DNA of 44,420 bases from Lachnospiraceae bacterium (lineage in GTDB: Bacteria; Bacillota; Clostridia; Lachnospirales; Lachnospiraceae). This document shows, one piece after another, positions 2,955 through 18,860 of the stretch. A program made the position numbers and the translations under genes. The stretch lies in contig JAGAIZ010000087.1 in NCBI GenBank assembly GCA_017626325.1, forward strand, positions 1-44,420, written 5' to 3'. Under the pieces are notes generated by a model that saw only the letters and a program-made list of their open reading frames with translations, was not told where the DNA came from and did no database searches. Within the stretch, counting starts at the first letter, position 1; the number at the start of each line of letters is the position of its first letter.

Positions 2955-2958
2955 GCTG

Positions 2959-4431
2959 TCATCCTCTCCGTTCTGCCAGAATATCCCTGATCAGATCTCT
3001 CTCATCCATAGGATATTTTACGCCGTTTATCTCCTGATAATCCTCATGTCCCTTGCCGGCAAGCACAATAATGTCTCCCGGTTCACCGTGGTCGATCGCA
3101 TAGGCAATCGCTTCCTTACGGTCGCATATCTCCACGTATTGACCGTCAGTCTTACCCATGCCGATCTTAATATCGTCGATAATCGCCTGCGGTTCCTCCG
3201 AACGCGGATTATCCGACGTGATGATCGTCAGATCCGCCATGCGTCCGCTTACTTCCCCCATCTCATATCTTCTCGACTTCGCCCGGTTGCCGCCGCAGCC
3301 AAACAGACATACCAGACGGTGCGGCTCATATTCCCTGAGCGTGGACAGAAGACTCTTAAGCGCCATCGCATTGTGGGCATAATCAATCAAAAGCGTAAAC
3401 TCATCGGATACCTTAACCGGCTCGATCCTGCCCTTGACCTTCGCATGCAGAAGCGCCCGCTTCACATTTTCCTCCTGTACGCCGAAATGCCTGCAGATCG
3501 CGATCGCCGTCAGCGCGTTATATACGCTGAACTTACCCGGCGTTGCGATCTTCACGGAAAAGTTCATCAGCCCGCTTACGTCAAACGCCATACCAAGAGC
3601 CCCTGCTTCTTTGATAAAGGTAATATTCTCCGCCTTAAGATCTGCCGGCGTGTCGATTCCGTAAGTCTCAAGACTACAGGTATGCCCTTCTGTTACTGCC
3701 TCCCAGTGCGCATCGTCGTGGTTTACGATTCCCACCCTGCACTGTTTGAACAAAAGTCCCTTACAGCGCAGATAATCGTCGAAATCCTTATGCTCCGCAG
3801 GCCCGATATGATCCGGCTCCAGATTCGTAAAAATACCGAAATCAAACACAAAGCCTTGGGTTCTGTGCAGCATCAGTCCCTGTGAAGACACTTCCATCAC
3901 AACGGTATCACAGCCGGCATCCGCCATAGCCCTGAAATATTTCTGAATCAGGTAGGATTCCGGCGTCGTATGATCCGCGTGAATATGCGTATCTCCTATA
4001 ATAATCTCTATCGTGCCGATCAGACCTACTTTTCTGCCCGCCTGTTCCAGAATAGATTTCACCAGATACGTCGTAGTCGTCTTGCCCTTCGTTCCGGTAA
4101 TGCCGATAATCTTCATCTGCTCAGCCGGATATCCGAAATATGCAGCCGATACAAACGCCATGGCATAGTGCGTATCCGGCACCCTGATCACCGTAACGTC
4201 CGCATCCTCCGGCAAATCCACTTCCTTTTCCACCAGCAATACCCCGGCTCCCGCTTCTGCCGCCTTCCCGGCGTAGCTGTGTCCATCTGTTACTGCTCCC
4301 GGAATACAGACAAACATGCTGCCCTCTGTCACCTTTCGGGAATCATAGACAATATCTGTCACTTCCCGGTCCATACCGCCCCGGATGCATTCATATTCCA
4401 CTTTAGAAAGTAACTCCTGTAACGCTGCCAT
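2959..4431 (-). CDS. murE: UDP-MurNAc-tripeptide synthetase MurE, probably meso-diaminopimelate-adding
   Basis: Cytosolic Mur ligase that adds the third residue of the peptidoglycan stem peptide with ATP hydrolysis. The ATP-binding motif GTKGKTTTT lies near residue 112. The specificity motif reads DNPR (in SDNPRSEEP), which in this family marks meso-diaminopimelate rather than lysine ligases. I chose the ATG at 4431 (490 aa) because an AGGAGAG site lies just upstream. A 20-codon longer reading frame is open to 4491, but it would run through a good promoter (4463-4491), which argues against it. First gene of the murE-priA-def operon. Confidence 0.96.
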   Translation of the reverse strand: MAALQELLSKVEYECIRGGMDREVTDIVYDSRKVTEGSMFVCIPGAVTDGHSYAGKAAEAGAGVLLVEKEVDLPEDADVTVIRVPDTHYAMAFVSAAYFGYPAEQMKIIGITGTKGKTTTTYLVKSILEQAGRKVGLIGTIEIIIGDTHIHADHTTPESYLIQKYFRAMADAGCDTVVMEVSSQGLMLHRTQGFVFDFGIFTNLEPDHIGPAEHKDFDDYLRCKGLLFKQCRVGIVNHDDAHWEAVTEGHTCSLETYGIDTPADLKAENITFIKEAGALGMAFDVSGLMNFSVKIATPGKFSVYNALTAIAICRHFGVQEENVKRALLHAKVKGRIEPVKVSDEFTLLIDYAHNAMALKSLLSTLREYEPHRLVCLFGCGGNRAKSRRYEMGEVSGRMADLTIITSDNPRSEEPQAIIDDIKIGMGKTDGQYVEICDRKEAIAYAIDHGEPGDIIVLAGKGHEDYQEINGVKYPMDERDLIRDILAERRG

Positions 4432-5786: not shown

Positions 5787-7559
5787 TTACAGGCAATAGT
5801 CCTTCATTACCATCTGCAGGCTTTCTCTGCCCTGGTATACGTTAATATCAGGATAATAAATCACATTGATGCGGATGGCGTCGCTGCCCGTCTGATACAG
5901 TCTGTCTTTCTCAGCTCTCCCGAAATGCTCCGTCAGAAAATCATGCCATTTCTCTATATTGCCGAAATATACCATATCATACCTTCCGCCCTCTTCATCC
6001 CGTACCTGGTATTTTCCTACATTTCCGTTTTTTCCAAGAAGCCTGCCCCTGCACACTGACAGATTCTTCTGGGCGAAGACAGGTTTGGGATTACCGTTGC
6101 CGAAAGGCTCCAGCACTGACAACTGCCTCACAAAAGGCATCGTCACATAAGACATCGGCATCGGCACGTCGATCACGATTTTCTCCACCAAATCCTCTTC
6201 CGTCAGCCCGCAGTGCTCGTTTAAATACTGCCGGAACCGCTCCGTATTTTCTTCCGGCATGGATACGCCTGCCGCCAGCTTATGCCCGCCGTACCTGGTA
6301 TACAATTCCTTACACTCGCTCATCTTATCGTACATATGGTAAGCGTCAATAGAACGGCCAGAGCCTTTCACGCCATCTTCCGCCTTCGTCAGCACAAACG
6401 CCGGCTTCTGGTAGCGCTCCTTAAGCCTGCCCGCGATAATACCCGCAAGGCTCTCATGACAATCCGGCAGATAGACCACCAGCACCTTATCCTCTTTTAA
6501 CGCGGTCTGTTCGATCAGCGCAACGGCTTCCTCCACCCCCCGCAGCGTCATGGCCTTCCTGCTGTCGTTCAGCTCCTTAAGCTCCGCCGCTATGGTCACC
6601 GCCTCCGCCTTATCCTTTGTCAGAAGCATCTGTAAGGCCCGCGCCGCCGTATCCAGTCTGCCCGTAGCGTTCAGACAGGGGCCCAGCACAAAACCGATAT
6701 GATAGACCGACAGCGGCTTGTTCTGTAAGCCATTCACATGGATTAACGCCTGCAGGCCGTAATTGGCGGATTGTGTGATCAGCTTAAGCCCGTATTTTAC
6801 AATAATCCGGTTCTCATCCACTAACTCCATCACATCGCCCACCGTAGCGAAAGCGGCGAAGGCAAGGAGTTCCCGCAGCCGGCTCTGACTGTTTTTTAAC
6901 AGCACTCTGTCGAACAGAACCTGAACCAGCTTATAGGCGACCACCGCGCCGCAGATTCCGTCAAAGGGATAGCCGCACGCCTGCTGCTTCGGATCGATCA
7001 CCGCTGCCGCCTCCGGCAGACACTCTCTTCTGCTGCCGTCGGGCTGTATCTCATAAGGTACTTCATGATGGTCTGTGACAATCACTGTCATTCCAAGAGA
7101 ATTGGCATAGGCTATCTGCGGCGCCGCAGCGATACCGTTGTCACAGGTGAGAATCGTGTCAGTCCCCGCCTCGCCGGCGTCCAGAATCAGTCTGTCATTG
7201 AGTCCGTAGCCGTCCAGAATCCTGTGCGGGATTACCGCGTCTGTGACTGCCCCGCAGGCACGCAGACCCGCCGTCAGTATGTATGTGGAACAGACGCCGT
7301 CTATATCGTAATCTCCGATAATGCGTATCTTTCGTCCCGCCGCGATCTTATCCGCCAGAATGTCCGCCGCTTTCTCCACATCTTTCAGCAGATAAGGAGA
7401 ATGCAGATCATCAAGCGTCCCGTTTAGATAGCGGTCGATCTCTTCCTCCGTAATCAGATCTCTGTTCCGGATAATTCTTGCGATAACCGGATCAATGCCG
7501 AACCGCTCCGCTGTTTGATTAAAATCCGCCTTCTTGGCTGATATCATCCATTTGGACAT
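5787..7559 (-). CDS. recJ: Single-stranded-DNA-specific 5'-3' exonuclease RecJ
   Basis: DHH-family nuclease acting in recombinational and mismatch repair. The DHH-domain motifs are clear: GDYDIDG near residue 80 and TDHHE near 154. The DHHA1 domain carries GGHKLAAG near 400, and an OB-fold-like C-terminus follows. The open frame extends to 7568; I prefer the ATG at 7559 (590 aa, MSKWMISAKK). No strong ribosome binding site distinguishes these starts. It lies directly downstream of the accessory operon, separated by about 240 bp. Confidence 0.95.
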   Translation of the reverse strand: MSKWMISAKKADFNQTAERFGIDPVIARIIRNRDLITEEEIDRYLNGTLDDLHSPYLLKDVEKAADILADKIAAGRKIRIIGDYDIDGVCSTYILTAGLRACGAVTDAVIPHRILDGYGLNDRLILDAGEAGTDTILTCDNGIAAAPQIAYANSLGMTVIVTDHHEVPYEIQPDGSRRECLPEAAAVIDPKQQACGYPFDGICGAVVAYKLVQVLFDRVLLKNSQSRLRELLAFAAFATVGDVMELVDENRIIVKYGLKLITQSANYGLQALIHVNGLQNKPLSVYHIGFVLGPCLNATGRLDTAARALQMLLTKDKAEAVTIAAELKELNDSRKAMTLRGVEEAVALIEQTALKEDKVLVVYLPDCHESLAGIIAGRLKERYQKPAFVLTKAEDGVKGSGRSIDAYHMYDKMSECKELYTRYGGHKLAAGVSMPEENTERFRQYLNEHCGLTEEDLVEKIVIDVPMPMSYVTMPFVRQLSVLEPFGNGNPKPVFAQKNLSVCRGRLLGKNGNVGKYQVRDEEGGRYDMVYFGNIEKWHDFLTEHFGRAEKDRLYQTGSDAIRINVIYYPDINVYQGRESLQMVMKDYCL

Positions 7560-7701
7560 ACAAATCAACTGCCGGCCTGCTCTGAGGCAACCGGCTTCCT
7601 TTCCGCCGCAGAACCTGTACTCTGACAGACCGTCTGAATATAAATACCCCCTAAAAGCATTCCGCAGCCCTATAATATGGCAGGCAAAACTCAGCCGTAC
7701 C

Positions 7702-7716
7702 TGTTATAGTGTAACA
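7702..7716. promoter_or_regulatory. Palindrome overlapping a possible recJ promoter
   Basis: TGTTA-TAGTG-TAACA is a perfect 5-bp inverted repeat with a 5-bp spacer. It overlaps a minus-strand -10-like TATAAC (7704-7709) that sits 16 bp after a TTACCC -35-like element. It could be a repressor site for recJ, but the evidence is only the symmetry and position. Confidence 0.3.
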
Positions 7717-7798
7717 CTTTTAGAGGGTAATTTATAGTACAAGAATGAACTTGTCCTATCGAATTTATCCTATCGACTTGTCATATCTTCCAAATACG

Positions 7799-8125
7799 TT
7801 ATCGCTGATTGCTCTCCTTTTTCCTGGCAAGAATATATTTCGCTTCTTCCGGCTCCCTCAGCAAATAATCGATGGCCAGAAATGCCGTGACCATATTCAT
7901 ATTCAGGCGTTCCATCAAATCCTGCACCGTAAGCTTTTCAATCACGATGACAGGAATCGTTCCGGTTGCGATAGCTTTCATCAGTTCTGTTTTCAGAGAA
8001 TGGTCCATCCTGTTTACAGCTTTTACCGCCTGTGATATCCGGCGCTGCGTATACCCCAGCTCCTCCTTCAGATATTTCACCAGCCGGATTTCTTCTGCCT
8101 CACTTAATCGGATTTTATTATCCAT
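7799..8125 (-). CDS. Small soluble protein, last gene of the accessory operon
   Basis: 108 aa, family not recognised. It is highly charged and predicted helical, with no membrane segment or signal peptide. The C-terminal third (TVQDLMERLNMN onward) looks like a short helical bundle. The start lies 3 bp after the stop of the HExxH gene, and an AGGAG site sits within that gene's 3' end, so translation is probably coupled. Tight linkage to the AAA+ and HExxH genes suggests an adaptor or regulator of those proteins, which is inference from position only. Confidence 0.75.
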   Translation of the reverse strand: MDNKIRLSEAEEIRLVKYLKEELGYTQRRISQAVKAVNRMDHSLKTELMKAIATGTIPVIVIEKLTVQDLMERLNMNMVTAFLAIDYLLREPEEAKYILARKKESNQR

Positions 8126-8128
8126 ATG

Positions 8129-8755
8129 TTAATATACTCCTTTCAAACATCCTGACGCAAATGTCAACGCATCCTCTTCCACTACCTGTCTGGCATATCC
8201 CTGGGGATCAACCTCAAATTCTATATAATTGTCGTAATTATTTCTCCACTCCAATCTTCTTGTCTCCTCAATATCCCAGAATCCTTCTGTCCTGATTGCC
8301 TTCTGCTGGATTGCATGCCGCAATTCGTGAATCATCGTGTCCAAAAATTCCTTAACATACTCAGGGTTTTTGGAAAGCAGATCCGCTACATTCAGGCTCA
8401 GGATATTATTCTCACCGTCGAAATACCCGCAGGAATCTCTGCTGTCGCCGTAAAAATCCGCCGTCACATTCAAATCATAGCATTCCACAAGTCTGCAGAA
8501 AACTTCTTCCATCTTATGAATCCTGTCTGCCGCATTCATCTTCAATATTTCCTGTATAGGGTCTTCTCCCAGGACGCCGTGTATAATCTGCTTCGTCTGT
8601 TTCTGCTTTAACCTGTCTGTTTTGCTCAGATTCGCCACAAGAAGACTATCCGGCGCTTTGACCCTGTTATCCCAGAGTTCCCGCAGCCACAGAATTGCTT
8701 CACAGACTAATTCTTCTACTATTTCTGACACAATCGTACGAAAAACAACTCCCAT
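8129..8755 (-). CDS. Zincin-like putative metalloprotease (HELRH motif)
   Basis: 208 aa, family not recognised. Residues 143-147 read HELRH inside MIHELRHAIQ, a textbook HExxH zinc-binding helix. About 50 residues later EEDALTFAS (193 onward) resembles the glutamate-containing third-ligand helix of gluzincin and SprT/IrrE-like peptidases. The N-terminus (about 1-30) is an amphipathic helix without an obvious signal peptide, so it is probably cytosolic or membrane-peripheral. I chose the ATG at 8755 because GGAGG lies 8 bases upstream and it follows the AAA+ stop by 1 bp; a frame 14 codons longer is not supported. A peptidase role is likely but unproven. Confidence 0.8.
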   Translation of the reverse strand: MGVVFRTIVSEIVEELVCEAILWLRELWDNRVKAPDSLLVANLSKTDRLKQKQTKQIIHGVLGEDPIQEILKMNAADRIHKMEEVFCRLVECYDLNVTADFYGDSRDSCGYFDGENNILSLNVADLLSKNPEYVKEFLDTMIHELRHAIQQKAIRTEGFWDIEETRRLEWRNNYDNYIEFEVDPQGYARQVVEEDALTFASGCLKGVY

Positions 8756-8756
8756 A

Positions 8757-10631
8757 TTAAACCTCCAACAGCTTCCGGCGTTCGTAACTTTCCACATCGT
8801 ATGCCCATTTATTTATCCTGGCGTATAGCTTATGATATACCGCAATATCGTACGGCTGATCACTTTGCGGACGCCGCTTCCTCAGGATAGAAACATTTCT
8901 GTCCTCTCCGGTCAGTATGTTCTCTGCCTGATAATCCCGGGCCCAGAACAACGCCTTGTCCCCTACGGTCGGCCTTAAGCCTTTGCGCAGCATTCTGCAG
9001 TAACTGATCGCAATGCTGTCAATGTTCTCCGGGCTGTCTCCATATACGGAACACTTTATTGTTTCTTCCATTAACGCTTCTTTCCATTCTCTCCTGGTGA
9101 TGGACTCTGTGTCCCTGAAATCCTGATTCAGATTTGCCAAAGCAGAATTAACAATTTTCTGAATATCAGAACCAATGATAATCCGCACGTCTGCTTCTTC
9201 TACCAGACAGGTATTGACGATATCAAGATACATTTGAAGATCCAGCGTCTCTCCGGCAATCAACTGCTTCATAGCTGCCTTCTCGCGATATTCCCTTGTG
9301 GAATCGATCGCTTTCTTAGTACATGTCAGGAAGATATCCGCACATTCTATGGCGGTAGGCAGGTACACCGCGAACAGTTCATCGAATCTCCCGCTTCGGA
9401 AAAGCTCTTTCGGAAGCCCTCCCATGTCATTTGCGGTAGCGAAGATGAAACAGGGTTTCTGATTCTCCTGCATCCAGTTCAGCAGCGTACCAAACATCCG
9501 TTTAAAGGTTCCTCCATCCGCGGCTCCGTCCGACCGGGCGCCGCTAAACCCCTTCTCCATCTCATCAATCCACAGAACGCAGGGCGACATCGCCTCGGCA
9601 AGCGCCAGCGCTTTGCGCATATTTTCCTCCGATTGTCCCTGAATACCGCCCATCAGTCTTCCGATATCCATCTGCAGAAGCGGCAATCCCAATTCCTGTG
9701 CCGTAAGCTTGGCTGCCAGAGATTTTCCGCACCCCGGTATCCCGCATAACAGAATGCCCTTGGGCGCGCTGATGCCATTCATTCTCTTGTTCAGATTCTC
9801 GTTCTCCATTAATCTTCTTTCTCTGATCGTTCTGATATAAGAAGTTAATGCCTCCATGCCGCCGATTTTCTCATTTTCACAGGGGATCAGATTCAGCACC
9901 CTGTCAGCATTCCGGAATTTCTGTTTCTTCTGCTCCTGAATAATTTCGCAGACCTTTGAAACAAGCTCTCCATCCTGTACCAGAAGGTTTGATTCCTCCC
10001 TCTGCATATCGCGTGTCAGCGCCTTATGCAGCGCGCAGGCCATCTCCTGTCCGTCAAATCCCTGCAAAAGACCGCACAGCCGCTGCAGGGGTCTGCCTGT
10101 AATGCTCTCTCCGTATTGCGCGGCGGTCTTCTGAACCAGTTCGCGGATTTCCTCGAAGTCAGGATACCCCACTTCAATTACCTCACAATACTGCAGCAGG
10201 TTTTCAGACAGCTTTACCTGTTCGGAATACAATATGACTGCGCTGCTTCTCAGCAAGGAAGACTTGTTCGTCTCACCGAGGGCATCCTCCTGTCCTGTGT
10301 ACTGCCTTACATAACGCCGCAGTTCATATTCATTGATTCCGCCGTCTGCGTTTATGGTAACGATATGCGGGTATTTCCACGCATTTATGGATTCCAGTTT
10401 TTCCTCCCAGTTATCGGGCCTGGCTGCATCGTTTCTGAGGCGGCATTCCCTATAGGGACGGTACCGTGTGGTGAATTTCTCACTGGAAATATTCGTCACC
10501 AGAACAACCAGCTCTTCACTTTCAACGATCGTCTTTATGAGTTCATAGGAATCTGTTTTAATATAGATCAGAGGAGTGCCTGCCCTCATTGCCGCCTTAC
10601 ACTTCCTGATCACCTCTGACAATACTCCCAT
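8757..10631 (-). CDS. Ycf46-like AAA+ ATPase
   Basis: 624 aa. Residues 1-245 form an N-terminal domain beginning like Ycf46 proteins (AGTPLIYIKTDSYE). The AAA+ core follows: Walker A GIPGCGKS (297-304), Walker B LWIDE (353-357), sensor-1 ATAND (398-402) and the arginine-finger region RSGRFDE (412-418). The layout and wording of the core match the uncharacterised AAA+ family Ycf46 known from cyanobacteria and plastids. Such ATPases usually form hexamers that remodel proteins. The ATG at 10631 has a GGGAGG site; the open frame runs 21 codons further upstream. It sits between the Hsp70-like and HExxH genes and may be the motor of that group. Confidence 0.9.
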   Translation of the reverse strand: MGVLSEVIRKCKAAMRAGTPLIYIKTDSYELIKTIVESEELVVLVTNISSEKFTTRYRPYRECRLRNDAARPDNWEEKLESINAWKYPHIVTINADGGINEYELRRYVRQYTGQEDALGETNKSSLLRSSAVILYSEQVKLSENLLQYCEVIEVGYPDFEEIRELVQKTAAQYGESITGRPLQRLCGLLQGFDGQEMACALHKALTRDMQREESNLLVQDGELVSKVCEIIQEQKKQKFRNADRVLNLIPCENEKIGGMEALTSYIRTIRERRLMENENLNKRMNGISAPKGILLCGIPGCGKSLAAKLTAQELGLPLLQMDIGRLMGGIQGQSEENMRKALALAEAMSPCVLWIDEMEKGFSGARSDGAADGGTFKRMFGTLLNWMQENQKPCFIFATANDMGGLPKELFRSGRFDELFAVYLPTAIECADIFLTCTKKAIDSTREYREKAAMKQLIAGETLDLQMYLDIVNTCLVEEADVRIIIGSDIQKIVNSALANLNQDFRDTESITRREWKEALMEETIKCSVYGDSPENIDSIAISYCRMLRKGLRPTVGDKALFWARDYQAENILTGEDRNVSILRKRRPQSDQPYDIAVYHKLYARINKWAYDVESYERRKLLEV

Positions 10632-10681
10632 ATGCTCCCTCCCTGGCGCCGGTCCTGATCGCAATCTCCCAGCCGGAACTT

Positions 10682-12574
10682 CTAAATTACACATTTAAGC
10701 GTCATGATCTCATACGCATCCTTTACGATGGCTCTGATGTTATGTTCAACATTGCTGTCCGAAAGCACAGAATCAAGGATTTTATCCAGTTCTTCACCGC
10801 ACATTTCATAGATCACATCTTTCTTGTCCTTCATCTTGTCTCTTGTATTATTGCGGACCTTGGCCTCGCGCTTTTTCTCCTTGTCCGTATCATGGAAAAG
10901 GCGCGCCATGACCACTCCTACGAGAAACCCGATCACGCCTCCTACTCCAGGAAAAAGAATGTTGCCAAGAATCGCATAAGCCAGCGCTACCGCCACCATA
11001 ATCACATTATCAAGAATACTGTTGACATCTATTGCGGCTATAATGGATGCGGTATCGATACTCACGTTATTCAGACTGCTGTCTAACGCGTCCCATTTTC
11101 CTTCCGGCATTTTGATTTTCTGTGCCATAGACGCGCCCAGCTTCTTCTGTATCTCGCTTTCCAACTGTCTGCGGACAGCCTGCAGAATTTCTTTAGACCA
11201 TTTTGATACGCAGACTTTGTTGCCCGCCTTAATGTCCGCCATCTTTCGGGATACCTTCTCCTGCATCCGTTCTTCTAATCTCTTTAAGGATTCATCCTCC
11301 GTGGCATTGGCCCATTCTGTACATGCCTCCATTACAATTTGGTACATGCTCTCTCCCATGTTCTCCCGCAGCATGCCTTTTAACTTATCGGCGCTGCACG
11401 CACCGCTGTCTATCACGGCTTTTTCGACAGCGTCGATACATTCACGCTCCAGCTCGTCCACCAGTCCTACCCATACCAGCCCCTGCGAAACGCTGAAGCA
11501 CGGCGTCCTGGAACAGGTTATGGTATACGCCGGTTCCGGAAACACTTCTCTTGCGTACGCCGCGACGAAGGACATCTTGCTTGCGCCGCCTGTCAGTACG
11601 ATTTCCCTTGAGGAGTGGTTGGCATTTTCAATCTTTGCCTTGCTTTCCAGGAAAAATTGTTTACAGTATTCTTTCCAGCTTCCGGCAATCAGTCTTCTGT
11701 TAATATCTATCGCAACTTCCTCTTTCAGCGCTTCTCTCATAGTAGAATTGTCTATATCCAGCGTCACCGTTAATTTCCCGCCTTCCTGTACCGGGAATTT
11801 CCATGCGACTGTACAGGAATCCGCCGTCAAAGAGCCGTTAAAATACGCTTCCTTCATCTCACGCAGTTTCCTCTCCAGATCAGAGAAATTCTGCTGCATC
11901 ATAAGATGAACGCCCTTCTGGCCTGCCTCCTCTTCCGCCTTGCGGCACATAAGCTTGCGCATCGATTTCTCAATCTCTCTTGCGCCAAAGTTCCAGCTTA
12001 GTTCGACGTATTTCTCTCCTGTCTTCATATGCGTCATATCTGTTGTGGAAGAACCGAAATCATATACGCTTGCTCCGTCACTGGCGGAAATCATACGCCC
12101 CTTGCCGTCCGCCAGCGCACTGAACATGGCCGCTCTTGACTCCGGCACAATTCTGACCTCTGCAGCTCCGGTCGCCTTCTGAATTAACGCCTGATACGCC
12201 CTGCGATTCTTTGACGAAGTCCACTCTTCTGACGTTGGACAGCCCACCAGCAGAAGAATCTGGTCTCTTTCTGAAATATTGGTATTATAATCCTTGATAT
12301 TCTGCATAATCCGGCTAAACAGCATTGACAGCAGGTCTCTTCGTCTGATGGCATTTCCCTTTTTATTGCCCTGTATCACCTCATCGAAATGCCCGGGAGA
12401 CGCCTTAAAATAATTAAAAAGCTCCTCCTGGTATTCTACCTCCGACAAAATGACCGTGTTCTTATTCCCGTCCAGGAATAGATTGCACATGCCCGCAAAG
12501 CTTCCGCCTGTGTAGTTCGGCGTCGCCGCCGCGATTTCACAATGCCCCATATCCAGACCTATTATCCTTCTCAT
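10682..12574 (-). CDS. Hsp70/actin-fold ATPase with C-terminal hydrophobic membrane segment
   Basis: 630 aa. The nucleotide-binding motifs of the Hsp70 fold are present in order: phosphate-1 GLDMG (6-10), phosphate-2 DFGSSTTD (172-179) and adenosine motif LTGGASKM (327-334). The C-terminus is unlike DnaK. It has a helical, probably coiled-coil stretch at about 380-490, then a long hydrophobic glycine-rich segment (about 524-560, with FPGVGGVIGFLVGVV) and a basic tail. This predicts a membrane-inserting hairpin. The start is preceded by GGGAG. The next gene, the AAA+ ATPase, begins 50 bp after its stop. Substrates are unknown. Confidence 0.88.
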   Translation of the reverse strand: MRRIIGLDMGHCEIAAATPNYTGGSFAGMCNLFLDGNKNTVILSEVEYQEELFNYFKASPGHFDEVIQGNKKGNAIRRRDLLSMLFSRIMQNIKDYNTNISERDQILLLVGCPTSEEWTSSKNRRAYQALIQKATGAAEVRIVPESRAAMFSALADGKGRMISASDGASVYDFGSSTTDMTHMKTGEKYVELSWNFGAREIEKSMRKLMCRKAEEEAGQKGVHLMMQQNFSDLERKLREMKEAYFNGSLTADSCTVAWKFPVQEGGKLTVTLDIDNSTMREALKEEVAIDINRRLIAGSWKEYCKQFFLESKAKIENANHSSREIVLTGGASKMSFVAAYAREVFPEPAYTITCSRTPCFSVSQGLVWVGLVDELERECIDAVEKAVIDSGACSADKLKGMLRENMGESMYQIVMEACTEWANATEDESLKRLEERMQEKVSRKMADIKAGNKVCVSKWSKEILQAVRRQLESEIQKKLGASMAQKIKMPEGKWDALDSSLNNVSIDTASIIAAIDVNSILDNVIMVAVALAYAILGNILFPGVGGVIGFLVGVVMARLFHDTDKEKKREAKVRNNTRDKMKDKKDVIYEMCGEELDKILDSVLSDSNVEHNIRAIVKDAYEIMTLKCVI

Positions 12575-12623
12575 TTGCAGAATCTCCCTTTAGTTAATTT
12601 AAATCTATAGTTTAATATGGTAT

Positions 12624-12663
12624 GACAGTCTGCCTTTTGCTTCATGTAGTATGACAGTCTGTC
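12624..12663. repeat. Imperfect tandem repeat carrying two small palindromes
   Basis: TATGACAGTCTG occurs twice, 29 bp apart, each followed by a T-rich stretch and TTCATG. Each copy contains a near-palindrome: GACAGTCTGCC at 12624-12634 and GACAGTCTGTC at 12653-12663. The second copy ends in the stop region of the upstream gene. The two sites face the same side of the helix, about three turns apart, in the gap before the Hsp70-like gene. This fits either an operator pair or a recent short duplication. Confidence 0.5.
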
Positions 12664-12667
12664 TTTT

Positions 12668-13573
12668 CTATTCATGTTTATACTGGTTCAATATACTTCT
12701 GGCCTTCTCGCTCATTTTTCTGTAACGGCTCCGCAATACATCCAGCTCACTTTCTCTATCCTTCATCGCAAGCAGGTCGGACTCCTGCATCAGATCATCC
12801 AGCGCGGTCTTTAACCGCTTCGCCTCTTCTATCTCGCCCCGCTTCTTATCTTTTCTCCGCTCCAGGTCCTCCAGAATTGGCTGAAATCCAAAGGCATCCG
12901 AATGTCTGTTATAGCCTTGTATTTCCGCATCCGCTTTGTACAGCCTTGCGTACAGCTTTCTGTCTGAGTATGCCATCGTCGGCTTCCTGCTTACCTCTTT
13001 CACCAATAAGCAGGTCTGATACAGATTATCCAATTCCTCATTCATATAAGCCAGTTCATGCAGAAACGCCGTCATACTTACGTCCTTTCGCGCCCCCTTG
13101 TAAGAAGCCTCTGATTCCTGCAGACGTCTCTTCATCCCCTGATAATCCAGCCATGCCAAATTCATGCAAGTATTAAATCCACACAAAACCACATTCTCCG
13201 AAGTCTCTTCTCCCTCTAGTTCCTGCTCCACATACTGGCAGAAATCCTGCAGCTTGCTTCTGATTTTATCATTGGCATAATAGCCCGATAGTACAATATT
13301 GGCGAAGGCCTCTTCGGCTTCCATTCCCTGCTGTTTCTTCCATTCATAATAACATGCTCCAAGAGCTTCTTCGAAATCAGAACGCATCCCGCATCCCGTT
13401 CCGAATCTTCCGGCTCGTTCAAACCGCTTGTATATCCGTCCCGCACAGTCTTTGGTCTTGGCCGCAGAGTCCTTCCTGCCGCTCTGCTTCTCCTTAAGCT
13501 TCGCCTTACCCCTTTTTATCCTGTTATTCCTGCTCTCATCTCCACCATATACAATTCTGCCCAGTCCCGACAT
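12668..13573 (-). CDS. Unknown soluble protein with basic N-terminus and coiled coil
   Basis: 301 aa, family not recognised. The first 50 residues are strongly basic and probably disordered. The middle is helical with several Cys. About residues 225-295 form a charged heptad-like coiled coil (EDLERRKDKKRGEIEEAKR). No membrane segment. I chose the ATG at 13573 because an AGGAGAAGAGGG site lies directly upstream and it begins after the preceding gene's stop; the longer frame to 13642 would overlap that gene by 41 bp. The coiled coil suggests a structural or bridging partner of the Hsp70-like ATPase encoded next. Confidence 0.8.
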   Translation of the reverse strand: MSGLGRIVYGGDESRNNRIKRGKAKLKEKQSGRKDSAAKTKDCAGRIYKRFERAGRFGTGCGMRSDFEEALGACYYEWKKQQGMEAEEAFANIVLSGYYANDKIRSKLQDFCQYVEQELEGEETSENVVLCGFNTCMNLAWLDYQGMKRRLQESEASYKGARKDVSMTAFLHELAYMNEELDNLYQTCLLVKEVSRKPTMAYSDRKLYARLYKADAEIQGYNRHSDAFGFQPILEDLERRKDKKRGEIEEAKRLKTALDDLMQESDLLAMKDRESELDVLRSRYRKMSEKARSILNQYKHE

Positions 13574-13601
13574 TCCCTCTTCTCCTTTGGCCTTCCGCCA
13601 T

Positions 13602-14885
13602 TTACGCCCATCGAATCTTACACGCGTCATCATCCGACGCATGTATAATCATATTTCCCCCGTCTTCATCGAGGCAGTATTCTTTCGCCTGATACCTCGC
13701 GCCTGCGATCCTCTGCTTCAGCCAAGCTGCCTGACAGAACGAAACGGCATTGCGGCCGTTCCATTCCGGAAGATTCGACCATATTCTCCCCTTACTATCC
13801 AGCAGCAAAAATCCGCCCTTTATGATCTGAACCTCGACAAAAGTTTTGTAGCTGTACGTATCGAGCATGTCTGCTATCGCACACTGTCTTCTGGCAGGCA
13901 GATATCTTCCCGCCAGTGCCCGCCCCTTACGAAGATAAAGCTCGCCGTCTTCTCCCACACTGAAACCGGATATATCCGTTCCATATTCCAGACATACATC
14001 CTCTCTGTCATCCCGATACCGTACAAGGAGATCGCCGCTGTAATAGTGCGGTCTGCAGATACATGCCGTATCACAGATAGCCAGCGTCGGTAAGAAACAC
14101 ACGATCTTCCCGCCGACTGTATTACAGTGCCTGTACTCGCCCGGCCGCATGACAAACTCCCACACCGTCTCCTGATCCTTCTCCGAAAACACCTGTATAC
14201 AGGCATGGTCAAAGCCGTCGTCCCCGCGCACGGTCTCCAGCTTCATCGTCTCAATGACTTCATCTGCCCGCAGCGACTCTTCTTCATACAACATAAATCG
14301 ATAAGGCGGCCTCCTGCATTCCAATCTGCCCGCTTTCAAAAGCTCTGCGGCTGCCGGTCCGCCCTCTTCCTCCTGTCTGGTCCTGAATTCGTCCCCGGAT
14401 CCTGTCCTGGCAGTCGGTTCCATCTCCGCCAGCATACATATTGCCGTCAGAATAACAGCGCTATACGGCTTTTCCTTATTTGCCCTGACCTCATCCAGCA
14501 GGAAGCTGAGTTTCTCGCTAATCCGAAGCTGTATCCATTCTTCCCGCAGGCTCTCCCCGGCATCCTTAAGCGAAACCGTATCGTCTGCATGCATGGTAAG
14601 GAAGGCAATCCCTCTGTCGCATAGCATTTCCGTACACTTCTCCACTGTCGCTTCCCCGTCCAAGCAGGCGTTCTCTATTTCGTCATGCTTCCTCAGTATA
14701 TCCATCCAGAATTCTTTCCTCAGACAGACAGCAGCCGCATCTTGATCAAGCAGCAATTCAAGCGGTACGCAATGAATCGCTGCAAATTCAATAAACTGAT
14801 CCAATTGATTATAGATATGCCATATATCCGCGTATTGCTTCAGTTCCTTCAAATTAGTAATACAATGCCCCTGTGCTCTTATCAT
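13602..14885 (-). CDS. Unknown soluble protein with beta-rich C-terminal half
   Basis: 427 aa, family not recognised. The N-terminal half is helical (for example ELKQYADIWHIYNQLDQF). The C-terminal half reads as alternating short strands (FLLLDSKGRIWSNL, DISGFSVGEDGELYLRKG), reminiscent of a propeller or sandwich, but I could not assign a fold. No signal peptide or membrane segment. An AGGAGA site lies 9 bases before the ATG. It is encoded between the DUF6338-like membrane protein and the coiled-coil protein. Confidence 0.8.
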   Translation of the reverse strand: MIRAQGHCITNLKELKQYADIWHIYNQLDQFIEFAAIHCVPLELLLDQDAAAVCLRKEFWMDILRKHDEIENACLDGEATVEKCTEMLCDRGIAFLTMHADDTVSLKDAGESLREEWIQLRISEKLSFLLDEVRANKEKPYSAVILTAICMLAEMEPTARTGSGDEFRTRQEEEGGPAAAELLKAGRLECRRPPYRFMLYEEESLRADEVIETMKLETVRGDDGFDHACIQVFSEKDQETVWEFVMRPGEYRHCNTVGGKIVCFLPTLAICDTACICRPHYYSGDLLVRYRDDREDVCLEYGTDISGFSVGEDGELYLRKGRALAGRYLPARRQCAIADMLDTYSYKTFVEVQIIKGGFLLLDSKGRIWSNLPEWNGRNAVSFCQAAWLKQRIAGARYQAKEYCLDEDGGNMIIHASDDDACKIRWA

Positions 14886-14955
14886 CTACAGCTTCTCCTA
14901 TTGCCGCTCTGAGCCTGATCCTGCAAAACTGCCCCAGATATACTATAATTATTTC

Positions 14956-15546
14956 TCAGAATATCTCTATATGCTCTACGTCTGCCATCCTGACCGTAAC
15001 CATAACATTCTTTTCATTCAGATAACTTGGCTCATCCTTATAATTTGCGTTAGTTTCTTTATCATATTTAGCAAACGACTTTAAGGCCAGCCATGAATCA
15101 TTTCCCTTTTCCTCATAGTTCTTTAAATGCCCGATGAGATAATAGTCCTGTTCTTTGAGATATACTTTCAAATTGGAACCATTTTCCAGATCAAACACAT
15201 CTCTCCATATATCATCATGAAAAGTTTTGTGAAATAACTTCACCGTTATCTTCTGAAACCATTTTCTTTGTATCAGGCAGGAAAGTAAGCACGCGAGCGC
15301 TACCCCGATCAATATAGATATACCTGAATTAACCAATACTGTATCCGGAATCTGCTTCATGAATCTGATTCTGAGCAAAGACACCACCGCAAGCAGCGTA
15401 TAGCTGACAACACAACTCATAATCAGCATATTCTGAGCAGCAACCTTCTTTGACATCGCGAAGCATACTACCATAATTGTCAGATATCCCGGAACAAAAT
15501 ACTGCAAAACAGAAGATATATTTTCTATCACATATCCCACATCCAT
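14956..15546 (-). CDS. Three-span membrane protein, DUF6338-like
   Basis: 196 aa. Three predicted membrane segments (about 12-31, 40-60 and 71-92) are followed by a cytosolic beta-rich domain of about 100 aa that ends MADVEHIEIF. An N-terminal helix with a Pro-Gly (YFVPGY), and a tail with a charged strand-rich domain ending in an IEIF-type motif, resemble DUF6338 as I remember it. That family has no known function. The ATG at 15546 has a GGAGG site 9 bases upstream and begins 2 bp after the stop of the small upstream gene, so the pair is coupled. Confidence 0.78.
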   Translation of the reverse strand: MDVGYVIENISSVLQYFVPGYLTIMVVCFAMSKKVAAQNMLIMSCVVSYTLLAVVSLLRIRFMKQIPDTVLVNSGISILIGVALACLLSCLIQRKWFQKITVKLFHKTFHDDIWRDVFDLENGSNLKVYLKEQDYYLIGHLKNYEEKGNDSWLALKSFAKYDKETNANYKDEPSYLNEKNVMVTVRMADVEHIEIF

Positions 15547-15548
15547 GA

Positions 15549-15755
15549 TCAATTGCCTCCTTTCCCGTGTTTTCCCGTCATCAGAGCAATATCAAATTCT
15601 TTCTCATCAGAAGCTTCCATGGATGAATTAATATGCTTCTTTGTCATATTGAAATCCAATTTATTGTTGACAAGACGCTTTTCGTAACATCCCTTTTTTC
15701 GGCTGCTCTTTTCTTTTGCTTGCGGTGTTTCCGCCTGTTTGTTTCCTTCGTACAT
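15549..15755 (-). CDS. 68-aa charged peptide of the accessory operon
   Basis: Lys/Glu-rich, probably disordered peptide with no membrane segment and no recognised family. I chose the ATG at 15755 because it has a perfect AGGAGG 5 bases upstream; the frame 11 codons longer would need a TTG start with no such site. Its stop lies 2 bp before the ATG of the three-span membrane protein. The strong ribosome binding site argues that it is a real gene. Confidence 0.65.
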   Translation of the reverse strand: MYEGNKQAETPQAKEKSSRKKGCYEKRLVNNKLDFNMTKKHINSSMEASDEKEFDIALMTGKHGKGGN

Positions 15756-15798
15756 CGTTACCTCCTGCCCAAACATGAGCTCTTCCAATTTACTGATA

Positions 15799-15826
15799 TA
15801 TAATCAGCATGCTTCAAACTACAATC
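15799..15826 (-). promoter_or_regulatory. Possible internal promoter before the 68-aa gene
   Basis: In the AT-rich gap of 141 bp the minus strand has TTGTAG followed after 16 bp by TATATA, about 45 bp before the start of the 68-aa gene. This would allow separate expression of the downstream genes. The match is weak and the region is AT-rich, so chance is possible. Confidence 0.3.
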
Positions 15827-15898
15827 ATATTTTATTTGTAAACATTAACACAAATTAAATGAATTGTATATATTAATAACAAACAAAATTTGTAGTTT
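15816..15898. repeat. 83-bp AT-rich element bounded by an inverted repeat
   Basis: AAACTACAA (15816-15824) and TTGTAGTTT (15890-15898) are perfect inverted copies. The similarity continues inward with small gaps to about 20 bp per arm (ACAAA-AAAAT core). On the minus-strand transcript this gives a long stem-loop starting at the stop of the 323-aa gene. There is no T run, so it is not a classic terminator; RNA processing or a decayed small mobile element are options. Confidence 0.4.
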
Positions 15899-16868
15899 AT
15901 TTTAGGCAATACCCAAACTCATGAATCAGAATCTCTTCCGCCTGCCGGTTTACCTCTTCCAGGTCATTCCTGTGCTGCACCTCAGATTCTTTGTCGGCCG
16001 CCCGCAGTCCCTCATTGGAATAGGTATAGGCCATCCACGCGCAATGCTCTCTTTCCATATCAGACAAGAATTGTGCATGTGCAAGGTACTGAATAAATAT
16101 ATCCGCTATCCAGTAACAGATATCTGATATCACGATTTCGCAAAGATTAAGATCCCCAAAGCCGAACAAGCATATATATTGGCTATATGCTCTTTGTCCA
16201 TATTTCAGGGCATCGTCCCTGCCCTCTTCCTGACAGCATTCTTTGGTCAAAAGAACCGTCAGGGCGTCTGCGGCATTCCTTGCCGTCTGCTTTACCATCT
16301 CACTCTGGGGCAAAATGATGTATGCTTTAAACCTTAAAGAGCTGTTGTACCAATACTCACCGGATGTCAGCACTTTATTGTCTGCCACATTTTCATTATC
16401 TCCTTTTTTCGCTTCTTCCTGATCGATCTGTCGTATTAAGCTATTCCACCTTTCCCGGTCTTCAGTTCCCAGACCTTCTTCCTTTTCACTCATCCTTACA
16501 TCATCTCTGTATATCTGGTCTTCTGCCTTTTGGCTGTAATAATTCCTTTTTTGCTCCCATGTATAACCGTCCGTCTCTTCATACCATTCAAAGCACGGTA
16601 TTGTACTTTCTGCGCTGTCAAACAGTTCATCAATGCCGATTTCTCTGTCCTCCTGATAATATGCACCGTTTTCAATTGTACCAATCTTATGCTCCCGTCT
16701 GTTCCCTGTGATAACAAGAATTACCATGGCTGCCGCTATCATGAGCGCAATGATAACACCTGTACAAAATATCCGCTTTTTTGTACTGAATACTCTACGC
16801 TTTTTCTTACGGATACGTTTTGTTCCTTTATGCGTTTTTTTCTTTTGTCCACATTTCCTGCTGTCCAT
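15897..16868 (-). CDS. Membrane-anchored protein with basic N-terminus and helical outer domain
   Basis: 323 aa, family not recognised. Residues 1-32 are strongly basic (KKKTHKGTKRIRKKKRR) and cytosolic. One membrane helix lies at about 33-55 (FCTGVIIALMIAAAMVI), and about 265 aa lie outside. The outer part is helical and acidic, with paired Cys and many Tyr. By the positive-inside rule it is a type II membrane protein. The nearest GGGAG is about 15 bases before the ATG, unusually far, so the start is the weaker part of this call. It lies 24 bp after the previous gene. Confidence 0.78.
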   Translation of the reverse strand: MDSRKCGQKKKTHKGTKRIRKKKRRVFSTKKRIFCTGVIIALMIAAAMVILVITGNRREHKIGTIENGAYYQEDREIGIDELFDSAESTIPCFEWYEETDGYTWEQKRNYYSQKAEDQIYRDDVRMSEKEEGLGTEDRERWNSLIRQIDQEEAKKGDNENVADNKVLTSGEYWYNSSLRFKAYIILPQSEMVKQTARNAADALTVLLTKECCQEEGRDDALKYGQRAYSQYICLFGFGDLNLCEIVISDICYWIADIFIQYLAHAQFLSDMEREHCAWMAYTYSNEGLRAADKESEVQHRNDLEEVNRQAEEILIHEFGYCLK

Positions 16869-16892
16869 GACGCAAAACGCATTCTCCCTCTG

Positions 16893-17612
16893 CTATCCGC
16901 AGTCTGCAATTCTGTCTCCTGTATTTTCGATCAGTTTATCGTATTCCTCTCCAGCTTCCGCTTCGTCATATGTCATGTAGTATTTATCACACCGGTCATA
17001 TTCCCCATCATTCACATAGCATGTCAGATCATCCATATAAACGACATATTTTTCATTGATCGAAGCATTATTTTTATCACTGATCTTCCAATCCATAACG
17101 ACTGCGATCCTGACATCAAAATCATACTTATCTTTCTTTCCATTGCTTTCCAGATAATCCTCCAGATCATTCTGAAGCTTCATTTTTTTGCGGTTTAGAA
17201 TATCCGGTTCTTTCAGACAGAAATCCAATGTCTGTTCATCCACGTCAAAAGTAAAAATTTCATCTTCATATATGGCATCCTGAACCGCAACAACCTTTAC
17301 CACAATATTTTCACATTCGACCACCAGCACGGTGTGCATAACTGTATCACCGCCGCTCATATTGGCTTTCATATTATGGATTCTGTATTCCGCATACGTA
17401 CCATCCTCTAGGGGTACAATATCAACCTTCTTGATATCAAATCCCGGCTGGCGTTCCGCTTCCTCACGTTCTCTATCATGTTGTTTTACTTTCTTATCTT
17501 CGATTGTGTTTATACTTAAGTTAATCGCTCCAACCACTCCAACTACCATCCCAATTATTAAAGAGATTTTCCCTAATTTTCCTTTTGTATTGCTTTCGCT
17601 TTCTTCGCCCAT
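16893..17612 (-). CDS. Single-span membrane protein with outer beta-rich domain
   Basis: 239 aa, family not recognised. A short cytosolic N-terminus and a membrane helix at about 15-36 (ISLIIGMVVGVVGAINL) precede an outer domain of about 200 aa rich in charged strands and ending in acidic helices. I chose the ATG at 17612 because GGAGAAGAAG lies directly upstream; a TTG start 9 codons earlier would lie inside a terminator. With the 323-aa protein it makes a pair of single-span proteins with large outer domains, a plausible sensing layer for the operon. Confidence 0.78.
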   Translation of the reverse strand: MGEESESNTKGKLGKISLIIGMVVGVVGAINLSINTIEDKKVKQHDREREEAERQPGFDIKKVDIVPLEDGTYAEYRIHNMKANMSGGDTVMHTVLVVECENIVVKVVAVQDAIYEDEIFTFDVDEQTLDFCLKEPDILNRKKMKLQNDLEDYLESNGKKDKYDFDVRIAVVMDWKISDKNNASINEKYVVYMDDLTCYVNDGEYDRCDKYYMTYDEAEAGEEYDKLIENTGDRIADCG

Positions 17613-17625
17613 TCTTCTTCTCCAC

Positions 17626-17653
17626 AAAAAAAACGCCAAAACAGGCGCTTTTT
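17626..17653 (-). terminator. Intrinsic terminator between regulator and membrane genes (possible attenuator)
   Basis: On the minus strand a 10-bp stem with one G-U pair (AAAAAGCGCC/GGCGTTTTTT, 6-nt loop) runs into a T8 tract. The T tract ends 2 bases before the GGAG ribosome binding site of the next gene. It should cut transcripts that come through the winged-helix gene. A perfect -10 (TATAAT on the minus strand, 17657-17662) lies just before the stem, without a good -35. A transcript starting there would lack part of the stem. Confidence 0.75.
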
Positions 17654-17704
17654 CAAATTATAAGTTAATATTGCCCCGTCATGTTTAAATCTTCTGCGTT
17701 TCTG

Positions 17705-18631
17705 TCATTCTCTCTTTTTTCCCCTGTCCTGCTCATATTTCAGCAGCAGCATATCGTATTTTTCTGCCAGAAAATATGCTAAATGCATATCCATACCATT
17801 GCCAATCCACAGCTTCCTGATGGAAGACTTATCGTTCAGACCAATCATCGCCCGGAACATATCAGACTCAATCTTCTGTACAACAGGCTTTAACACTCCC
17901 CACCCTTGCGCCGGTTCCGCTGTCACAGCATTTTGACTGCCGTAAATATGAGCCTGTACCATTTCCGCAAAGCGGTATATCATTTCAGGATCTTCCTCAG
18001 CCATCTTTGATAATGGTTCAAACAGCTTCATTTCTTCACATCTGTCTATAATAATATTCTTGATTTTGTCCCTTGCTTTTGCATTCCTCACCAGCCGCTC
18101 CAATGTATCCCATGCATTCCGCGGCATTTCTTTATAAAATTCAAGCAGGCAGTCCATAAAGCTATAAATCAGGTTCTGGTTCTCTTCCACAATATCTTCT
18201 AATTTAACATATTGTTCCAGTACCTTATCGATCCTGCTTTCCGGATTTCCGCCTGCTCTTATTTGATAGAGTTCCCAATATTCATTCAATTTGCTTTCAT
18301 ATTCTCTGCCCTTTACTGATATCAGGTTCGACTCAACATACTGCCTCCCGCTGTCAGTCAGGCGATAATACTTGAATTTGTTTACTCTCGTATATTTTAA
18401 CGGGCTTTCCTCCGGCGCACACTCATCACAGATTTTTTTGACAATTGCATTTAATCCGCTGGCAGAAACTCCTATTGCCTCAGCCGCTTCCGAATGTGAA
18501 ATTCCTTCGTGATCATAAATTGTCAAAAGCAATTCGTCCTTATGCTTCTGTTTCAAATTCAGCAGCTTATAATCAGGAGATAAGCATAATACTGTTGATG
18601 ATATTGCTTCATTCATATCTGTGTACGCCAT
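17705..18631 (-). CDS. Winged helix-turn-helix regulator, first gene of the accessory operon
   Basis: 308 aa. Residues about 30-100 form a MarR-like winged helix: helix-turn-helix SHSEAAEAIGVSASGLNAIV (45-64), then a wing with KYYRLTDSGRQYVE. The remaining 200 aa are helical and not recognised, probably a dimerisation or sensing domain. A GGGAGGAAG site precedes the ATG. It is divergent from the DUF305 gene and heads the operon, so it is the natural candidate to control it. A 17-bp direct repeat and a good promoter lie upstream. Confidence 0.85.
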   Translation of the reverse strand: MAYTDMNEAISSTVLCLSPDYKLLNLKQKHKDELLLTIYDHEGISHSEAAEAIGVSASGLNAIVKKICDECAPEESPLKYTRVNKFKYYRLTDSGRQYVESNLISVKGREYESKLNEYWELYQIRAGGNPESRIDKVLEQYVKLEDIVEENQNLIYSFMDCLLEFYKEMPRNAWDTLERLVRNAKARDKIKNIIIDRCEEMKLFEPLSKMAEEDPEMIYRFAEMVQAHIYGSQNAVTAEPAQGWGVLKPVVQKIESDMFRAMIGLNDKSSIRKLWIGNGMDMHLAYFLAEKYDMLLLKYEQDRGKKRE

Positions 18632-18677: not shown

Positions 18678-18706
18678 ATCATATCACTACAAACTTCATT
18701 TTGCAA
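18678..18706 (-). promoter_or_regulatory. Promoter of the accessory operon
   Basis: The minus strand reads TTGCAA (18701-18706), 17 bp, then TATGAT (18678-18683), a 4/6 and 5/6 match to sigma-A consensus. The -35 is embedded in the first copy of the 17-bp direct repeat. The -10 lies 46 bp before the start codon of the winged-helix gene. Confidence 0.65.
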
Positions 18707-18860
18707 CATAATATATTTAATTTATAAAATATATTTCGTTGTTTTTGAACTATATTGAATTAAAACCGTACTTACATGATGTCTCATTATGTACTATTTT
18801 CCCGAATTTAATCATTATTATCATTTCATTTTTATTTCTTTTTACTTCATTTTGCAACAT
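18693..18860. repeat. Perfect 17-bp direct repeat in the 332-bp divergent gap (candidate operators)
   Basis: ACTTCATTTTGCAACAT occurs at 18693-18709 and again at 18844-18860, 151 bp apart start to start. The gap 18632-18963 between the winged-helix regulator and the DUF305 gene holds no other gene and is very AT-rich. The first copy covers the -35 of the operon promoter. Sites placed this way suit a repressor that could loop the intervening DNA, presumably the operon's own regulator. Confidence 0.6.

Follow-up and report, generated by a model that had tools for sequence, protein, structure and literature searches.

A conserved six-gene locus combining an Hsp70-like ATPase, an AAA+ ATPase and a zincin-like protein in a Lachnospiraceae bacterium

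In bacteria, Hsp70 and AAA+ proteins are for the most part regarded as housekeeping factors. Here, we describe a locus at positions 7799..18631 of a 44,420-nt stretch of Lachnospiraceae bacterium DNA (the window, meaning the whole stretch; assembly GCA_017626325.1, contig JAGAIZ010000087.1), in which an Hsp70-like ATPase (H), an AAA+ ATPase (I), an HExxH zincin (J) and a small partner protein (K) are encoded side by side. An initial annotation had presented eleven genes (A–K, Table 1) as a single operon. All eleven open reading frames (ORFs) are present on the minus strand at the positions given there, but the conserved unit consists of only six genes, F–K (7799-14885).

Several described systems share individual features with this locus. 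IetAS places an AAA+ ATPase near a protease, IetS, which is a subtilase (subtilisin-like protease). The AAA core of I has IetA as its best match in the defence libraries (PADLOC, 2.2e-24; NCBIfam, 72.1 of the 510 bits required), but none of the ten window proteins that we scanned against Pfam, PADLOC, NCBIfam and PHROGs (A–K without D) matched a Pfam subtilase, and F–K instead holds a zincin and an Hsp70-like ATPase. Among these ten proteins, I was the only one to exceed a Pfam cut-off (AAA). The dynamin-like proteins LeoBC share a feature with the C-terminal region of H, in which residues 407-621 resemble LeoB (PADLOC, 2.5e-8); the match is confined to that region, however, and the N-terminal ATPase of H is Hsp70-like and not a GTPase. 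J, in turn, resembles IrrE/PprI (partner DdrO) and ImmA (partner ImmR) in being an HExxH zincin and in having a gene paired with a small neighbour, and may resemble IrrE/PprI in fold as well. It differs in lacking a match to the M78 family in the four copies scanned in Pfam, in that K gave no helix-turn-helix model above cut-off and in the hydrophobic N-terminus of some J copies.

Two further groups of conflict systems use related ATPases. Type III-A CoCoNuT extensions carry alternative SpoVK/CDC48-like or HerA-like ATPases at one operon position, along with Hsp70-like and coiled-coil parts (PMC11090510). The alternation of two such ATPases in one slot beside an Hsp70-like part is found again at the loci reported here, but McrB, McrC, vWA and HEPN were unmatched in the ten window proteins scanned. 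For MoxR-vWA ternary and GTPase-HSP70 conflict systems, chaperone NTPases are proposed to gate effectors, and some pair HSP70 with GrpE (PMC7159879); here the difference is that vWA, MoxR, GTPase and tubulin were unmatched in the same ten proteins. Related literature also includes PMC8195603. No Pfam, NCBIfam or PADLOC system matched the gene set, nor did any paper in the literature covered, which takes in little of the subscription literature; within these libraries and papers, the statement of the initial annotation that it knew of no such described system holds.

The conserved core F–K

The F–K gene order is repeated in another genus (locus L107 of genome G1145; locus and genome handles are our own) at 35-56% identity, and recurs in more divergent, partial form in three further genomes. 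The adjacency of H and I is kept in three other genomes and the run H-I-J-K in two of those, with identities of about 24-56%. Neighbours kept together at this divergence are not expected by chance, and the F–K linkage is well supported. The survey of gene neighbourhoods that had been proposed as a check came out positively, with Hsp70-like, AAA+ and HExxH genes remaining linked at L107 and L042.

Outside the window, we collected 25 H loci, comprising 20 loci from the order or family, a Calothrix plasmid, genomes G930 and G1145, and the IMG/VR contigs L045 and L076. Four of them (L107, L042, L043 and L014) hold the core or part of it. Identity of L107 to the window is 35% for F, 39% for G, 56% for H and I, and 51% for J and K, and its genes run F-G-H-G-(two H fragments)-H-I-J-K. 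At L042 (G658), an F-like gene and two G-slot proteins precede H-I-J-K, which are 26, 30, 28 and 35% identical to the window proteins, respectively; L043 (G534) combines H (24%) and I (28%) with one F-slot and two G-slot proteins, and neither J nor K was found there. L014 (G380), a contig of 6.5 kb, carries a G-slot protein, H and F (E = 5e-5), and 29 residues at its cut end resemble the start of I (E = 0.021). The F of L043 and all G proteins outside L107 were assigned from position alone.

The F protein is 35% identical to its L107 counterpart over 489 amino acids (aa) and only weakly similar to that of L014, and the L042 F matches L107 F alone (3e-4). F had no Pfam match, and a PDB sequence search with L107 F gave nothing significant. 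For G, identity to the L107 protein is 39% over 240 aa. The 289-301-aa G-slot proteins of L042, L043 and L014 showed no blastp similarity to window G; the position just upstream of H is filled by a G-slot protein at all four core loci, and at L107 a second G stands before further H sequence. In the L107 tandem (G1145:C3, 7228-14955), G is present twice and H as two intact genes plus two fragments, which suggests duplication followed by decay. Directly downstream of K at the same locus lies a gene for an EcsC-family protein (3229-4032; Pfam, 5.7e-35).

The ATPases and the J-K pair

The initial annotation had named H as Hsp70-like, I as AAA+ and J as an HExxH protein, and all three assignments withstood comparison. 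An H-family profile matched the ATPase domains of DnaK/Hsc70 in the PDB in two stretches (1e-9), and H carries the phosphate motifs (IGLDMG, DFGSSTTD and LTGGAS; the first-motif pattern was missed in L014) and adenosine motif of the Hsp70/actin-type ATPase superfamily, though it does not class as a canonical DnaK/Hsp70: window H alone had no Pfam HSP70 match and L076 H stayed below the cut-off (0.0037). The structure model of H was of low confidence. I matched Pfam AAA above cut-off (4.7e-26), and the Walker A, Walker B and arginine motifs are present in all four I copies; it is tentatively labelled Ycf46-like from a sequence signature. J contains HELRH in the window, and HExxH with a downstream YxxQxxExxAxxxA is kept in all seven J copies, from six loci.

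H alone was rejected as a marker of the system, since 21 of the 25 H loci lack I and have a different partner family directly upstream of H. All but one of these 21 partners have at least one hydrophobic segment; nine of them went into the partner profile and match it by construction. The Calothrix match is weak (a 74-aa piece, 1e-5, with no hydrophobic segment), the L011 copy is cut by the contig, and at L045 an extra gene stands between the membrane-protein partner and H. By eye, the C-terminus of the upstream membrane partner looked GrpE-like; this claim was dropped, and neither hmmsearch nor hhalign gave a significant score between eight GrpE sequences and the partner or G (12 loci fetched).

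In 17 genomes of the order (L011-L013, L015-L018, L032-L041), a hydrophobic-segment protein and an Hsp70-like ATPase form a two-gene unit; within the stretches fetched, neither J-K nor an adjacent AAA gene of the I type was detected. L034 had been considered as a locus combining H and an AAA gene and was rejected; the AAA gene is not adjacent to H and reads as FtsH by eye. Phylogenetically, the 17 standalone copies and that of Calothrix form one clade (98/97), the window groups with L107 (99/99), and L042, L043 and L014 are unplaced owing to long branches; the two broken L107 fragments were omitted from this tree and N-termini were trimmed. The Calothrix relative lies on plasmid 2 of Calothrix brevissima NIES-22 (L010, 10821-12743), a plasmid typed as conjugative, where it is flanked by genes with phage integrase family annotations.

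G, H and J each have hydrophobic segments in some of their copies, in agreement with the membrane seat proposed by the initial annotation. Together with the Hsp70-like and AAA+ make-up, and with the other, usually membrane-spanning partner of H at 21 loci (19 of which have neither I nor J-K as fetched), they would also suit a module for envelope or protein-quality stress, whose membrane-seated chaperone and unfoldase would feed damaged proteins to J. We consider this unlikely: almost all relatives lack the locus, which sets it apart from housekeeping quality control, and the HerA-type ATPase found in place of I at two loci is no obvious substitute for an unfoldase.

These two loci, L045 and L076, both have the order membrane protein, H, a 923-927-aa ATPase, J and K. 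The L076 ATPase matched Pfam DUF87/HerA above cut-off as well as PADLOC HerA models, and shares 61% identity with the L045 copy. Judged from these sequence matches, the motor seems interchangeable, with a HerA-type ATPase occupying the place of I. I alone was also rejected as a marker, because 1,307 plasmid records match its AAA core; those listed bear the annotation 'AAA family ATPase', 'ATPase' or hypothetical. Directly upstream of the L076 set, at 2050-3783, lies a gene for a 577-aa EF-Tu-like GTPase (by eye), the C-terminal part of which matches the PADLOC candidate PDC-S48 (1.4e-8); the L045 protein at 6050-8089 has a C-terminal segment that looks similar.

J is a zincin that may be IrrE-like, its predicted fold lying nearest to IrrE/PprI. 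Four copies (window, L076, L107 and one of L152) left the Pfam M78 family model unmatched, the sub-threshold Pfam matches of J include DUF6782, DUF3920 and SprT-like among others, and PDB sequence searches with J and K gave no significant match. K adjoins J at all six J loci found. In five of them, the gene order is the same, with J-K downstream of H and of an ATPase that belongs to one of two unrelated kinds, and this argues against J-K being an independent mobile pair (an IrrE/ImmA-like protease whose companion would be a substrate, an inhibitor or an immunity protein) located beside unrelated ATPase operons. Such independence, to which we give little credence, would be consistent with L043, where H-I stands without J-K, and with the sixth locus, in G1299, which has the order K-J-J and no H seen, its contig ending just upstream. 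There (L152, G1299:C221, 354-2854), the two tandem J-like zincins after the K gene have long C-terminal extensions.

Distribution and possible function

The locus is sparsely distributed. With H as bait, we found H in none of 97 relatives besides the window genome, in eight of 391 genomes of the order and in 12 of 396 of the family, two of these 12 having an AAA gene beside H. J was detected in one of 298 phylum-sample genomes besides the window's (E up to 1e-6); a scan of named genomes with two short J patterns, confirmed in one of 100 stretches, says little on J frequency. With an E-value limit of 1e-3, an H-class profile search matched 149 of 392 genomes; values below 1e-10 were confined to the window genome and G930, and the weaker matches could represent common actin-like or Hsp70 ATPases. 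A second profile search gave weak matches (5.7e-7 to 7.5e-4) in 15 of 115 genomes besides the query's. Among IMG/VR viral contigs, I had no match, and H and J were matched solely on L045 and L076, both of which carry recombinase-like genes (by eye). Window H and L076 J were unmatched in phage records, and plasmid records contained one match for H, that of Calothrix, and none for the J and K of L045 or the J of L076.

Our tentative reading is that F–K forms one membrane-associated protein machine, a protease switch gated by ATP that would respond to stress or invaders, and whose mechanism and purpose we infer as follows. G would hold H at the membrane or tune its ATP cycle, and H, with F serving as a recognition subunit, would bind a client or a signal of danger. 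A hexamer of I might then pull on the client or on J-K, so that J, an IrrE-like protease that K restrains or delivers, can cleave a target in the cell, and the outcome of this cleavage would be the switch. At L045 and L076, the HerA form could perform the same step with a different motor, while A–E in the window might supply local control and membrane components.

The sparse spread, exchangeable parts and recombinase-like neighbours (by eye) favour a possible conflict role. They would also suit dedicated defence against phages or other invaders, in which J would be released once the ATPases detect infection, and membrane proteins (A–E here, others at the related loci) would kill or stall the cell. 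This is possible but somewhat doubtful. The proximity of the I core to IetA, the HerA form on two IMG/VR contigs, a membrane neighbour at L043 that weakly resembles the PADLOC 2TM effector (0.005) and the alternative SpoVK-like and HerA-like ATPases of CoCoNuT systems (PMC11090510) are in line with it; no whole-system PADLOC match was obtained, however, and a scan of ten flanking window proteins gave none of defence type.

More broadly, the F–K machine and its relatives could represent an undescribed class of ATP-gated proteases in several lineages, made of an Hsp70-like ATPase and partner, an exchangeable motor (Ycf46-like AAA+ or HerA-like) and an IrrE-like protease with a small partner, and acting in stress or mobile-element conflict; this, too, we regard as a possibility short of likely. 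If true, a sparse system that commits Hsp70 and AAA+ proteins to one protease through an exchangeable motor would point to wider chaperone-gated signalling and offer a testable case of ATPase-zincin coupling, for which the two motor forms, together with the J-K and G-H pairs, provide compact experimental handles.

Accessory genes and surroundings

A–E have no relatives at L107, L042, L043 or L014 (phmmer with all eleven proteins; L014 comprises just 6.5 kb), and the sole match of A in six H-bearing genomes was a winged-helix hit on another contig; window A was also unmatched in plasmid records. Because of this lack of counterparts at four related loci and of their higher AT content (GC fractions of 0.40 for A–E, 0.48 for F–K and 0.51-0.52 for the flanks), A–E looks like a separate addition to F–K. 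The four related loci carry their own proteins. Some of these are 348-413 aa long and contain one or two hydrophobic segments (an additional 303-aa copy is truncated by the fetched stretch); others are 164-360 aa long, and among them the L043 and L107 proteins have a region in common (8e-5). These different membrane and other proteins indicate that the accessory part varies.

Table 1. Positions of the genes and repeats in the window
Feature	Position	Strand	Description
Gene A	17705..18631	-	Winged-helix protein (weak match); accessory, outside the conserved core
Gene B	16893..17639	-	Single-span protein; accessory
Gene C	15897..16868	-	Single-span protein, basic N-terminus; accessory
Gene D	15549..15788	-	Small ORF, 68 aa from AGGAGG-preceded start; accessory
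Gene E	14956..15552	-	Three-span protein; accessory
Gene F	13602..14885	-	427 aa, fold without assignment; first gene of the conserved core
Gene G	12668..13642	-	324 aa (301 from start with ribosome-binding match); directly upstream of H
Gene H	10682..12574	-	630 aa, Hsp70-like ATPase, unusual helical C-terminal region, hydrophobic stretches 511-557
Gene I	8757..10694	-	AAA+ ATPase; N-terminal domain without Walker A; likely start Met22
Gene J	8129..8797	-	HExxH zincin; likely start Met15
Gene K	7799..8125	-	108 aa, small partner of J
17-bp repeat, nearer copy	18693..18709	-	Upstream of A; contains -35-like TTGCAA
17-bp repeat, second copy	18844..18860	-	Exact copy

Most structural details of the initial annotation were borne out. 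Gaps from A to K, taken between the longest ORFs, are 65, 24, 108, -4, 70, -41, 93, -13, -41 and 3 bp, so that six of ten are below 60 bp, as claimed for most; shorter starts with a Shine-Dalgarno match are available for B, D, G, I and J, that of D giving the peptide length reported earlier. Kyte-Doolittle analysis recovered the predicted spans, with one segment each in B and C, three in E and two in H (511-529 and 539-557). It added one marginal segment in F, which had been described, like G, as soluble. Of the large outer domains ascribed to B and C, that of C is plausible given its basic N-terminus before the span (by eye), and that of B is possible. For A, named as a winged-helix regulator, the winged-helix match is weak (Pfam HTH_24, E = 9e-4, below cut-off).

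The window contains no Rfam family and no tRNA, and promoter and terminator counts were at chance level (21 against 21.3 expected, and six against 7.2). Beyond K, recJ follows after 230 bp on the same strand. Upstream of recJ, four of six informative relatives have a SecDF-like long gene and two have other genes, a seventh contig ending at recJ; the window differs from these relatives, with no clean insertion point seen. Finally, the 17-bp repeat upstream of A occurs in two exact copies in the window, and at least two matches with up to three mismatches arose in one of 100 shuffles, the pattern having been drawn from the window after the repeat had been noticed. It is a possible candidate operator.
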